Part shown: piece after piece, positions 7,772 to 11,828 of the stretch
How the letters are laid out: every line of letters starts with the position of its first letter
How positions within the stretch are numbered: the stretch's first letter is position 1
Assembly (NCBI GenBank): GCA_009784355.1
Contig: WRBU01000016.1
Coordinates: 1 to 11,907 of the forward strand
Direction of reading: 5' to 3'
DNA from: Defluviitaleaceae bacterium
GTDB lineage: Bacteria > Bacillota > Clostridia > Lachnospirales > WRAX01
DNA length: 11,907 nt
Made by a program: the position numbers and the translations under genes
The notes under the pieces: model-generated
Databases searched by the model: none
Seen by the model: only the letters and a program-made list of their open reading frames with translations
Told to the model about the DNA's origin: nothing

Positions 7772-7800
7772 TAAAAAAAGAACACCTATTGAGATGTTCT
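7772..7800 (-). terminator. Intrinsic terminator overlapping the end of the beta-propeller-like gene
   Basis: The bottom strand from 7800 to 7779 folds as a 9-base-pair stem (AGAACATCT with AGGTGTTCT, one G-T pair) around a CAAT loop, followed at once by a run of T (7778-7773). The stop codon TAG (7788-7786) and the last three codons lie inside the stem, so the terminator starts before the gene ends. It shields the dnaA control region from leftward readthrough. Confidence 0.85.
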
Positions 7801-8913
7801 AATTATTTTTTTAATTTCGTCCACATCGTCAAAACTTTCAAAAAAACTGTCATACTCATTTTGACTGCCAATTTGGTGATTTTGATGTTCATATATGTAT
7901 TGATGACTGGTCTTTTGCTGGTTGTCAATTATGTGGTATATTTGCGAAAAAAGTTGAACATCCCAAGGCTTTTCTGCGCTTACATATATGCTATTTGTTA
8001 AAAAGTCATTTTTATATTCTTTGTCTTGCAAAAAAACACTCACGGATGTTTGTTGTGGGTATTTGTCCACATGTCTTTTTGGAGTAGAAGCATATAGTTG
8101 CTCGTCTTCCAGTATCGTACATTCAAATACTTCATCACCGCGTGCAAACACCACATGCACAACATTATCTTCAATATAAATCAAAGTATTATAAACTTGA
8201 TGCCCGCTAGATATAGCGACTTTGGGAGACAGTCCGTTTGCGTCAAGTCTTCTGTATACCAATGATGTGTTTAAAATGTTTTTTGTTACATAAACCATGT
8301 GTATGGCTTCTGTACTTGCTAAAAAGGAAGAGTTTTGAGTATTTATATTTGCTGATGGCTGAATGATTTTAAAATCACTCATTGTGTCTGCTCCATAGAC
8401 CTCTCTATACCCAAAGTCTGCACCCGAACCAGAAGCGGCGGCTTGATAAAAAACGAGATAATGCTGTCCGCAAATTGGAACCACCCTAAATGAATTACCA
8501 CCATCATATGGAACAACGCGCCCTAAATGCTTGCTGTTGCTCCACATACCTTGAGAGGATACATTGTGAGACATTAAAATATGGCTTGGCTCTGCTTGAA
8601 CAGGAATGCTATGAATTACATAAATGTCGTCTTGCAACCCTATGCCATAATATTGTCCAGCCAAACCCCCACTCACTAAAGTAGACGTTGTTAACACCCC
8701 TTGTTCAAAAATAATTTTTTCTACCTGAGATGCCCTTTGGCATAAGATTAATATATTTCCCTCAAAAAGGCTTACGGAAAAATTTATTACACCATCTTTT
8801 TTAATACAGCTTGACTTTGACCATTTATTATCTGTGTACTGCTTCCAAAACAGCCCGCCGTGCTTGCCATAAAAACAATATAAACCTCTCTTTGACAACA
8901 CAATATAATTCAC
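7786..8913 (-). CDS. Beta-propeller-like protein of unknown function
   Basis: I do not recognise a named family. The 375-residue product has no signal peptide or membrane segment, so it is probably cytoplasmic. Hydrophobic strand motifs recur about every 43-55 residues: NILILC (53-58), DIYVIH (96-101), HYLVFY (151-156), AIHMVY (203-208) and NVVHVVF (250-256). That spacing suits blades of a beta-propeller over about residues 1-290. The tail (about 320-375) is His/Gln-rich then acidic (DSFFESFDDVDE) and may be flexible. The start is GTG at 8913, with GAGGTG (8927-8922) 8 bases upstream; no nearby ATG in this frame fits. It is the last gene of a leftward group, with a parS site and a small palindrome in its 101-base upstream gap and a terminator within its stop region. 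A protein-interaction role is a guess. Confidence 0.8.
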   Translation of the reverse strand: MNYIVLSKRGLYCFYGKHGGLFWKQYTDNKWSKSSCIKKDGVINFSVSLFEGNILILCQRASQVEKIIFEQGVLTTSTLVSGGLAGQYYGIGLQDDIYVIHSIPVQAEPSHILMSHNVSSQGMWSNSKHLGRVVPYDGGNSFRVVPICGQHYLVFYQAAASGSGADFGYREVYGADTMSDFKIIQPSANINTQNSSFLASTEAIHMVYVTKNILNTSLVYRRLDANGLSPKVAISSGHQVYNTLIYIEDNVVHVVFARGDEVFECTILEDEQLYASTPKRHVDKYPQQTSVSVFLQDKEYKNDFLTNSIYVSAEKPWDVQLFSQIYHIIDNQQKTSHQYIYEHQNHQIGSQNEYDSFFESFDDVDEIKKIIRTSQ

Positions 8914-8982: not shown

Positions 8983-8998
8983 TGTTCCACGTGAAACC
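8983..8998. promoter_or_regulatory. parS: parS centromere site (ParB/Spo0J binding)
   Basis: TGTTCCACGTGAAACC matches the Bacillus parS consensus TGTTNCACGTGAAACA at every defined base except the last. It lies between two leftward genes about 1.7 kb from the dnaA start, where origin-proximal parS sites are expected. On the bottom strand it is followed directly by seven T, so its dyad could also act as a weak terminator for the gene ending at 9015. parA and parB are not in the window. Confidence 0.85.
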
Positions 8999-9014: not shown

Positions 9015-9443
9015 TTAAGATACGAACCTATTTGAATGCTCAATACCTGCACCATCAAGCAGATTTAACACATATTCGTCCCATCTAATATTTGCAGATT
9101 TATCAAGGGAGAAAGTTTTTTGCGACACACCTGTAGAAATATTGATGCAACCATCTTCATACAAGACGTTTACAAAAAATATAGTGTCAGGCACACCAAC
9201 AACATCTCCAGATTTGCTCAAAACAATCTTAATATATTTTGGCAAAGCACTGCCTTTTATAATTTCAAAGGCGTAATGACGCATATTTTGCCATGTTGAA
9301 GGCTCATTTGCTGGTATTTTGCTAATTTCAAAACATGCAAAACTATGTATCACAGCACTGTGAAAAGCGAATGCGTCAAAACATTCACTTTTTAAAAGTT
9401 TTGCCATAAAAGTTTTTGTATCCGCTATTGACAGTGAAAGCAT
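9015..9443 (-). CDS. DUF5721-like protein, function unknown
   Basis: The 142-residue product resembles the clostridial family DUF5721 by memory of its pattern: a start like MLSLSIADTKTFMAKLL, a central W..MRHYAFEIIKG (51-64), and a C-terminal strand-rich part with NISTGVSQKTFSLDKS...WDEYV (101-125). No signal peptide, membrane segment or catalytic motif is visible; it is probably cytoplasmic. The ATG at 9443 is 9 bases from the stop of the upstream gene, and its AGAGG site (9454-9450) overlaps that TAG stop, so the two are translated together. A parS site with a T run lies 17 bases after its stop. The family has no known role, and its place in an operon with a membrane zinc-ribbon protein is the only functional hint. 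A search against Pfam would settle the family. Confidence 0.8.
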   Translation of the reverse strand: MLSLSIADTKTFMAKLLKSECFDAFAFHSAVIHSFACFEISKIPANEPSTWQNMRHYAFEIIKGSALPKYIKIVLSKSGDVVGVPDTIFFVNVLYEDGCINISTGVSQKTFSLDKSANIRWDEYVLNLLDGAGIEHSNRFVS

Positions 9444-9452
9444 TGTATACCT

Positions 9453-10712
9453 CTATTCTTGTCTTAATATGTAAAGCGGCGGCAAAGTTATGTCTGACAA
9501 TATATCCTCTGCGTGCTGCCATCCAGACACGGGCTGCACAACCCACTGACTAGAAAAAGCAGCCAAAAACGAACCATAGCTTTCAAAAACCATATATGTG
9601 TATTGGTTTGTTGAAGCGATAAAGTTAGGGGCAACACCGCTTGGAATTAAAGTATTTTCAATCATTATATTTTGTAAGTACGCAAAATTGGCTGCTTGCA
9701 CCAAATTTGTTCTTGTTAGGTTAAAATTTGGCAAAAGTGATGGGTTAAAATTTGGTGCGGCTTGATTAATGACTTGGGTTGGATGCCGTTGGTTTTCAAG
9801 TCCGCTCAAAAGCATCAAAGGCTCGTTGTCTACAATTTCAAAAACATAATGTCTTAACAAATGACTGCTGCCCACATTGGATACAGTGGCAAAGGCAAAA
9901 TTACCGTCTGCCGACATAAACCTCACATCAATCAAAATACCGTTATTTTGACTAATTATAGAAGACACGATGTTTTGATAGATTACGCTTTGTGAAAGAG
10001 GTCTAACGACACTACCTCCGTATGGGATGTAACTCTCAATAACACTATTAAGATTCTCTCTAAAAATTTCTGTGTAGTTGTGTGTGGAATACAAACCAAT
10101 GCCCGTTATTGTTTCGTGGGCTACAAAAACAGTTAGAGTGTTTTCGTTAGGTAAATCTACTTCGTCAAAAACATTTAAGTCGCTTGGCCGTAAATACAAA
10201 ATTAAAAAATCTTCCTGTAAAAAAGGTTGCGGCAAAAGCCCTAACTCAACAAGGTGCTGGGTTGTTATAAATACTTGGTCGGTATCATTAAATAAGTAGC
10301 CCATGTTGGAAACAAATGCAAAATGAATTGAAAATTCTTCTAAATAATCTGTAACAACTGTATTTAGTTCGGACAGAGCACTGCGGCGAAGCTCTTCGTC
10401 AATCAAAGGCGGCCCGTTGTCAACAGATGAATTTTGTTGTTGGTCGCCATTAGACGTTTCGGTGTTGGTTGGCAAATCACTGTCTATGGTATCGTTTGTG
10501 CTGCTAGAAAAAATATTAGATATGAAATCAAAATTAACCCTATCCGTTAAATACATTACAACAAAAAAAACACACACACCAAATATCAGTGCAATTACAC
10601 CAATTTTTGTGTATTTTGGCAAGTTTTTTTTACCGCTTCTAATGGGGCGGGTGCAATTTTTACAAATACCGTCCGAAGTTTTAATTATGTTGTTACAATG
10701 TTTACACAGCAT
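9453..10712 (-). CDS. Membrane-anchored zinc-ribbon protein with extracytoplasmic domain
   Basis: No named family is recognised. Numbered from the chosen start, a zinc ribbon of two CxxC pairs (Cys3/Cys6 and Cys17/Cys20) is followed by a Lys/Arg-rich stretch, one membrane helix (37-55), an S/T/N/Q-rich linker (about 68-98) and about 320 outside residues. The positive residues before the helix place the zinc ribbon in the cytoplasm and the large domain outside. The outer domain alternates aromatic strands with Asn-rich loops. Start choice: GAGGTG (10725-10720) is one base from an ATG at 10718 but 7 bases from the ATG at 10712, so the latter is preferred (419 residues; 421 otherwise). A strong promoter precedes it, and the DUF5721-like gene follows with an overlapping binding site. 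Zinc-ribbon-plus-helix proteins are common in clostridia, often as membrane sensors; function here is unknown. Confidence 0.85.
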   Translation of the reverse strand: MLCKHCNNIIKTSDGICKNCTRPIRSGKKNLPKYTKIGVIALIFGVCVFFVVMYLTDRVNFDFISNIFSSSTNDTIDSDLPTNTETSNGDQQQNSSVDNGPPLIDEELRRSALSELNTVVTDYLEEFSIHFAFVSNMGYLFNDTDQVFITTQHLVELGLLPQPFLQEDFLILYLRPSDLNVFDEVDLPNENTLTVFVAHETITGIGLYSTHNYTEIFRENLNSVIESYIPYGGSVVRPLSQSVIYQNIVSSIISQNNGILIDVRFMSADGNFAFATVSNVGSSHLLRHYVFEIVDNEPLMLLSGLENQRHPTQVINQAAPNFNPSLLPNFNLTRTNLVQAANFAYLQNIMIENTLIPSGVAPNFIASTNQYTYMVFESYGSFLAAFSSQWVVQPVSGWQHAEDILSDITLPPLYILRQE

Positions 10713-10746
10713 ATCCATTCACCTCAATGCTTGTTCGTCAATGTTG

Positions 10747-10775
10747 ATTATAACATACCGTAAAAATGATTGCAA
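10747..10775 (-). promoter_or_regulatory. Leftward promoter of the zinc-ribbon/DUF5721 operon
   Basis: On the bottom strand TTGCAA (10775-10770), exactly 17 bases, then a perfect TATAAT (10752-10747). The start should be near 10740, leaving a leader of about 28 bases before the ATG at 10712. The -35 hexamer is shared with the rightward exoA promoter. Confidence 0.82.
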
Positions 10776-10798
10776 ACAAAATTGCGTTATGTTAAAAT
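10770..10798 (+). promoter_or_regulatory. Rightward promoter of exoA
   Basis: TTGCAA (10770-10775), 17 bases, then TAAAAT (10793-10798). Because TTGCAA is its own reverse complement, the same six bases serve as -35 for the leftward promoter. The start should be near 10805, about 28 bases before the exoA ATG. Confidence 0.75.
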
Positions 10799-10832
10799 GT
10801 TCCACAGATAATAAATATAGGCGGGTGATTTT

Positions 10833-11588
10833 ATGAAGTTTGTGTCATGGAATGTAAATGGACTGCGTGCCACAATGAAAAAAGGCTTTATGGATTTTTT
10901 TGATGCGATAGATGCGGATTTTTTTTGCTTGCAAGAAACCAAAATGCAATATAGCCAACTTACCTTTGAATTTCCGGGCTATAATGTGTTTTTTTGTGAT
11001 GCAGAAAAAAAGGGATATTCCGGCACGGCTATTTTTGCCAAAAAAGCACCCCTATCAAGTGCTTACGGCATTGGTATTGAAGAGCATGACAAAGAAGGGC
11101 GTGTTATAACGCTGGAATATGATGATTTTTATTTGGTGAATGTATATACCCCTAATTCTAAAAACGAGCTGCTGCGGTTGCCGTACCGCATGGTTTGGGA
11201 GGATGCGTTTAGAGAGTACCTATTGGGGCTTGATGCGAAAAAGCCCGTGGTGCTGTGCGGGGATTTAAATGTAGCGCACAAAGAAATTGACCTAAAAAAC
11301 CCAAAATCAAACCGTAAAAGTGCGGGCTTTACAGACGAGGAGAGGGGAAAATTCACAACCCTGCTTGACGCTGGCTTTGTGGACACATTTAGACATCTTT
11401 ACCCTGATTTAGAAGGGGCGTATACTTGGTGGTCAATGATTTCCCGTGCAAGAGAGCGAAACGCAGGATGGCGCATAGACTACTTTGTGGTATCAAGCCG
11501 CTTTGCAGACAGCATCACCGAAGCAAAAATTTATGACGACATTTACGGGTCAGACCACTGCCCTGTCGGAATTACATTGAAAATATAG
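10833..11588 (+). CDS. exoA: Exodeoxyribonuclease III / AP endonuclease
   Basis: This enzyme cuts DNA 5' to abasic sites and has 3'-5' exonuclease activity in base excision repair. The 251 residues have the family length. All active-site residues of the exonuclease-phosphatase fold are visible: Asn7 (WNVNGLRA), Glu35 (LQETK), Tyr105 (NVYTPNS), Asp144 and Asn146 (GDLNVAH), Asp216 (WRIDYF), and Asp241/His242 (GSDHCP). TYTWWS-like AYTWWS (196-201) is the usual DNA-contact loop. The ATG follows GGGTGA by 5 bases. It is the first rightward gene, and points with a rightward fork. A 6-codon ORF and a Met-rich small gene follow. The name exoA is the Bacillus symbol; xth is the alternative. Confidence 0.97.
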
Positions 11589-11675: not shown

Positions 11676-11828
11676 ATGAATAACCCTACTGCGGGAGCGC
11701 ACGTACCGCCCTTTGTACCGCCTGTGCAAGACAACAGAATGATGATGTTAATGCTTATGCTAATGCTAAACCCAGGTATTTTTGCGGGCAATATGATGAT
11801 GTTTTTAATTTTAATGATGATGTTTTAA
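11676..11828 (+). CDS. Methionine-rich 50-residue small protein
   Basis: No known family is recognised. The product has 13 Met in 50 residues. A Pro-rich start with HVPPFVPPVQ (9-18) is followed by MMMLMLMLML (22-31), a turn NPGIFAGN (32-39), and MMMFLILMMMF (40-50). The two Met/Leu blocks could form a short hydrophobic hairpin, perhaps in the membrane. Met-rich segments are known to bind copper in some small proteins, but no Cys is present and the role is unproven. The case for a real gene is a near-ideal GGAGGA (11664-11669) 6 bases before the ATG and a strong terminator starting right at the stop. It is probably co-transcribed with exoA; no good promoter of its own is seen. Confidence 0.65.
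   Translation: MNNPTAGAHVPPFVPPVQDNRMMMLMLMLMLNPGIFAGNMMMFLILMMMF

Follow-up and report, generated by a model that had tools for sequence, protein, structure and literature searches.

Predicted divergent promoters around one symmetric -35 hexamer upstream of exoA and at other gene pairs of a clostridial family

Introduction

Upstream of an exoA-type gene in a Defluviitaleaceae bacterium, a single palindromic hexamer lies midway between two outward-facing -10 elements, which raises the question of whether these 52 bp make up a dedicated switch between the flanking genes or a promoter region that serves both of them. We refer to the whole stretch of DNA that was analyzed (11,907 nucleotides) as the window. 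Our answer, which we hold to be probable, is a bidirectional promoter built around one symmetric -35, i.e., a single case of a family-wide habit with no dedicated switch. The features on which the argument turns are the following:

9015..9443, minus strand: DUF5721 gene (PF18988, E 5.5e-21), 9 bp past the zinc-ribbon-like gene
9453..10718, minus strand: protein of 421 aa without a Pfam family, CxxC...CxxC near the N-terminus, by eye like a zinc ribbon (ORF list, Pfam, alignment)
10747..10752, minus strand: -10 TATAAT of the zinc-ribbon promoter (ATTATA on the plus strand), TG-extended (CA at 10754-10755 on the plus strand), predicted start at about 10740
10770..10775, no strand: shared palindromic -35 hexamer TTGCAA (sequence and promoter scan; register kept in orthologues)
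10793..10798, plus strand: -10 TAAAAT of the exoA promoter, TG-extended at 10790-10791, predicted start at about 10805
10833..11588, plus strand: exoA-type gene of the exonuclease III/endonuclease family PF03372 (Pfam), 251 aa

Results

Two predicted promoters and their surroundings

Read along the top strand, ATTATA is followed by 17 bp, TTGCAA, another 17 bp and TAAAAT. An earlier note on this DNA had described TTGCAA as its own reverse complement, 17 bp from TAAAAT on the top and from TATAAT on the bottom strand, and this is exact to the base. In the promoter scan of the window, the minus promoter matches the consensus at 10 of 12 positions and the plus promoter at 9 of 12. The scan also found TG ahead of both -10s, a feature absent from that note, which makes each side an extended -10 promoter. 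Both directions thus carry the marks of sigma-A-type (sigma-70) promoters, i.e., hexamers near TTGACA and TATAAT, a 17-bp spacer within the range of 16-18 bp, and extended -10s.

The 421-aa protein probably starts at 10712 because the five aligned orthologues lack its first two residues, and its gene probably forms one operon with the DUF5721 gene. That operon had been labeled "zinc-ribbon/DUF5721", and its second half is confirmed by PF18988, while the zinc ribbon is a by-eye reading of an invariant CxxC...CxxC in a protein without a Pfam family. Downstream of exoA, a small Met- and Leu-rich frame of about 50 aa (11677-11826; no Pfam family) is followed by a terminator-like GC-rich inverted repeat and T run. 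Scanning the window against Rfam with gathering thresholds gave no match.

The segment 5911-7785 holds a minus-strand dnaA-like gene and, after it, a non-coding region, probably the replication origin. The gene past this putative origin (7786-8913, minus strand, 375 aa) has no Pfam family. Near the origin are palindromes that we take to be parS-like; such sites occur in all 16 family genomes. One of them, TGTTCCACGTGAAACC, lies at 8983-8998 of the window with one mismatch to the pattern. In the relative G003, a full palindrome, TGTTCCACGTGGAACA (L012, G003:C20:2248-2263), has one base, the last, in common with the exoA -10 and extends into the leader; at the equivalent position of the window (10798-10805) only its left half, TGTTCCAC, is present. 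In some relatives, transcription of exoA may therefore begin within a ParB site.

Conservation at orthologous loci

The exonuclease gene is present in 10 of the 16 family genomes and diverges from the zinc-ribbon-like gene in seven of them (G000, G003, G004, G007, G010, G011, and G014). The exonuclease of the window is 81-88% identical to those of the other six, and its zinc-ribbon-like protein is 31-41% identical to theirs. Public records match five of the zinc-ribbon-like loci, i.e., four metagenome-assembled genomes (MAGs) named Defluviitaleaceae and one named Clostridiales, which are presumably of termite-gut origin judging from their project names.

Promoters were called in six of the seven orthologous regions, and for G010 the elements were taken from the search for divergent -10 patterns described below. 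The top-scoring promoters of both directions overlap at their -35s in five of the six scored regions and do so exactly in G010. Across all seven loci, the -35s overlap with a register of 0 or 1 bp in six and stand 2 bp apart in one, which supports the claim that two sigma-A-type promoters have one palindromic -35 in common.

The earlier note had also proposed close relatives as a check, in which neither the shared TTGCAA nor one of the -10s should be missing, and this expectation holds in part. Both -10s are found at all seven loci, but the hexamer has fared less uniformly. It is shared exactly as TTGCAA with 17/17 spacers in three loci (G000, G003, and G010). Another three (G004, G007, and G014) read TTCGCAA, from which the minus promoter takes TTGCGA. 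The plus promoter of these loci takes TTCGCA, shifted by one base, or else TCGCAA, for which the spacer is 16 bp, and their minus-side -10 lacks the TG extension. In G011, TTGCAT and TTGCGT lie separately within GCAAGCTTGC.

Comparing G000, G003, and G010 gives identities of 91, 100, and 91% over the 22 element positions and of 20, 40, and 30% over the spacers; element identity is inflated for G000 and G010, which are themselves pattern hits, while G003 is not. The same comparison is less informative for G004, G007, and G014, the spacers of which are 67-90% identical. The unit of G010 (L163, G010:C80) lies near the zinc-ribbon-like gene, and the start of exoA is 284 bp away from it, as if the leader had gained sequence. 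In G015, the two genes are on different contigs with a promoter each, which by eye read TTGCAA-17-TATTAT without a mirrored -10 for the exonuclease gene and TTGCAT-17-TATAAT for the zinc-ribbon-like gene.

Recurrence across the family

We searched the 16 family genomes for divergent extended -10 pairs with the pattern ATTATAnCA-N(20-50)-TGnTAnAAT, i.e., at 31 distances. The 106 forward and reverse matches correspond to 79 distinct places, including the symmetric G012:C72, which was taken from its minus-strand copy with unchanged length. At 22 of these places the total length is 51 (11) or 52 (11), the lengths dictated by a shared -35, and the neighboring lengths of 49, 50, 53, and 54 account for 1, 0, 2, and 2 places. 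Length 52 corresponds to a shared TTGCAA with 17/17 spacers and length 51 to a shared TTGnCAA or to TTGCAA with spacers of 16 and 17 bp.

The 22 sites are spread over 12 of the 16 genomes. Their cores are TTGCAA with 17/17 spacers in eight, TTGnCAA in six, TTGCAA with 17/16 spacers in four, and TTTACAA in one; a shared core resembling a -35 is thus present at 19 sites and absent from three. At 17 sites, each side has an ORF of at least 45 aa that starts no more than 160 bp away and is one of the two longest ORFs listed for that side.

Compared with uniform spacing, an approximate null, the binomial p is 3e-9 for 22/79. It becomes 3e-7 (19/76) after merging sites at the same gene pair (two sites each at exoA, an M18 peptidase, and, by eye, a patatin). 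Merging sites with any gene in common adds a third M18 site and, by eye, two tmk sites and leaves 17 sites, for which p is 4e-6 (17/74); dropping the three coreless sites as well gives 2e-4 (14/71). Merging was applied to the length-51/52 sites alone, and the other 57 places were left unmerged.

ORF-aware promoter calling over 1.09 Mb of family stretches yielded 118 divergent pairs, 74 of them with 60-360 bp between the genes. Promoters scored at least 10 in both directions in 22 pairs, three of which were shared, two of these being the present locus (in G014 and G007). The resulting shared fraction of 13.6% compares with 2.4% under a resampled null in a sample that is too small to carry weight.

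Two further observations concern spacing. Divergent extended -10 pairs show a smaller excess at total length 64 (7/79); some of these have two adjacent -35-like cores, and by eye G007:C82 and G014:C63 appear to be orthologous sites. Moreover, 18 of the 118 divergent gaps called in the family stretches (L059-L078 and L109-L148) measure 104-125 bp, about the length needed for one shared -35 unit and two short leaders.

Comparison with the wider class and order

The spacing peak sets the family apart from its surroundings. In a class sample of 290 genomes, the total of which excludes the window's own genome, 68 of 1414 matches (4.8%) had lengths 51/52 compared with a uniform expectation of 6.5%, i.e., there was no excess. 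Counted in the same way, the family has 29 of 106 (Fisher p 7e-13 against the class). Within the order outside the family, from which three family genomes were excluded, 9 of 118 among the matches listed had these lengths (p 0.35, no excess); the difference between family and order, again among the matches listed, has a p of 2e-4.

TTGCAA is a genuine -35 in this family: ahead of TGnTAnAAT it occurs 16 times at a spacer of 17 bp versus 0.67 times on average for the remaining spacings, with TTGACA at 27. We considered whether frequent use of this hexamer is the whole cause of the peak and rejected this idea, since TTGCAA is common across the class too (260 matches to TTGCAA-17-extended -10 in the 16 family genomes and 624 in 98 class genomes), while mirrored sites centered on TTGCAA, counted with one identical pattern, number eight in the 16 family genomes and two in the 290 class genomes. 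Single genomes have little power in this respect, as illustrated by G083, which has 48 TTGCAA matches and no mirrored site but just two divergent matches at any distance. The G036 and G051 stretches, used as -35 controls, contained too few promoters for comparison.

Discussion

The elements, their register, their conservation, and their recurrence can be read directly from the DNA, and on this basis we propose that two sigma-A-type extended -10 promoters stand back to back on one symmetric -35. Region 4 of sigma factors contacts the -35 as double-stranded DNA, according to PMC12825309, so that a palindromic hexamer should be readable in both directions. The housekeeping sigma region 4 would accordingly read TTGCAA on either strand, and the holoenzyme would bind in one of two orientations, leading to transcription of either exoA or the operon of the zinc-ribbon-like and DUF5721 genes. 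The two -10s, 40 bp apart, would complete two promoters of which one would be engaged at a time. Since the hexamer is common to both and the -35s overlap in six of seven loci, geometry leads us to expect one holoenzyme at a time, and polymerases should exclude each other at the shared -35. We presume that both promoters fire and that sigma-A is the factor. Selection on the expression of each gene would keep the two in register, and the locus would be one instance of a habit, common to the family, of basing compact divergent intergenic regions on a shared TTGCAA or TTGnCAA. Any effect on expression would depend on promoter occupancy, and at basal activity the link to expression is expected to be weak.

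The alternative that survives best takes exclusion one step further, with firing of one promoter silencing the other and exoA and the zinc-ribbon operon used as alternatives. The geometry of the shared hexamer, kept with the same two genes in six of seven loci, speaks for such a switch, as does the finding in PMC12825309 that activation of one direction of an E. coli bidirectional promoter can repress the other. The two promoters look near consensus, and competition between them is therefore possible. However, the layout is present at other gene pairs, the -35s are separated in G011, and the genes are apart in G015, all of which suggests that DNA economy and the keeping of two promoters, rather than a designed switch, maintain it. 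Furthermore, all five E. coli bidirectional promoters tested in that paper fire too weakly at basal level for competition, which sets in upon activation of one direction; these promoters share their -10, and the comparison is thus an analogy only. Together, these points count against the earlier proposal of exoA and the zinc-ribbon/DUF5721 operon as coupled alternatives, and we regard a dedicated switch as unlikely.

A second alternative, to which we give still less credence, is that the palindrome mainly serves a regulator as its operator, the promoter match being secondary. TTGCAA is indeed palindromic, and by eye G004, G007, and G014 have GCAAGGGnGCAAA in common next to the core. Yet at unrelated genes both -10s stand at precisely 17 bp from the core. 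At 14 sites, the -35s of both strands begin with TTG and have 17-bp spacers, and 69 of 196 positions (35%) of these mirrored spacers are complementary, which argues against a long dyad; no inverted repeat exceeding the -35 hexamer in length was found at these 14 family sites.

The weakest alternative, one real promoter and a mirrored -10 that is a coincidence of AT-rich DNA, draws on promoter-like sites in the window being no commoner than in shuffles (41 versus 36.6, sd 6.4; not significant) and on the strict mirrored pattern having a single occurrence in the genome of the window just as in the reversed control, a count that for this reason proves nothing alone, but it is scarcely credible given that a mirrored pair with a common -35 arose in 50 of 20000 Markov-1 random 114-mers of the region's composition, that 0 of these 20000 gave such a pair with two extended -10s, and that orthologues retain the layout despite diverged spacers. 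The case against chance rests on this conservation and on the 51/52 spacing peak.

A bidirectional promoter around one symmetric -35 therefore remains our preferred reading, with modest consequences for exoA alone, i.e., a compact conserved promoter pair. The broader possibility is a recurrent family class of symmetric TTGCAA or TTGnCAA -35s with mirrored extended -10s, preserved as a unit at well more than a dozen divergent gene pairs, in which the choice of orientation would link the outputs of many housekeeping pairs; we put this forward tentatively, as somewhat more doubtful than not. Such a lineage would offer a natural series of sites for measuring how polymerase chooses its orientation, and the 51/52-bp peak between divergent extended -10s is a simple genome test for any clade.

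Divergent promoters near enough to interfere with each other are familiar, e.g., lambda PR/PRM and those in the review of Beck and Warren, and the examples that we can name have separate -35s. We know of no recurrent, exact sharing of one -35 hexamer across a lineage, and an exact-phrase search found no paper on recurrent promoters with a common -35 among the open-licence literature matches listed, which is weak evidence of absence. The Pc/Pr pair of plasmid pLS20 (PMC4207663) likewise consists of overlapping divergent sigma-A promoters at which polymerase interference is expected, but in that pair the -10 of Pr is proposed to fall on the -35 of Pc and the -35 of Pr on the -10 of Pc, and the regulator is Rco, whereas here -35 lies on -35 and no regulator is evident.

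The closest parallel is the class of bacterial bidirectional promoters described by Warman, Grainger, and colleagues, in which, as here, symmetry of a core element permits two polymerase orientations and divergent RNAs, often between divergent genes. These promoters have a -10 common to both directions (PMC12825309), and the distance between their start sites is 7-25 bp, with 18 bp the most frequent value (PMC12825309 and PMC10268837). The present locus differs in both respects, with a common -35, separate -10s, and predicted starts about 65 bp apart as judged from the -10s. In these papers bidirectionality is explained by -10 symmetry, and the -35 in that role would be a second route to it. 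The best reading of our locus is thus a lineage-enriched variant of the bidirectional promoter that has the -35 in common, whereas the described class has the -10 in common.
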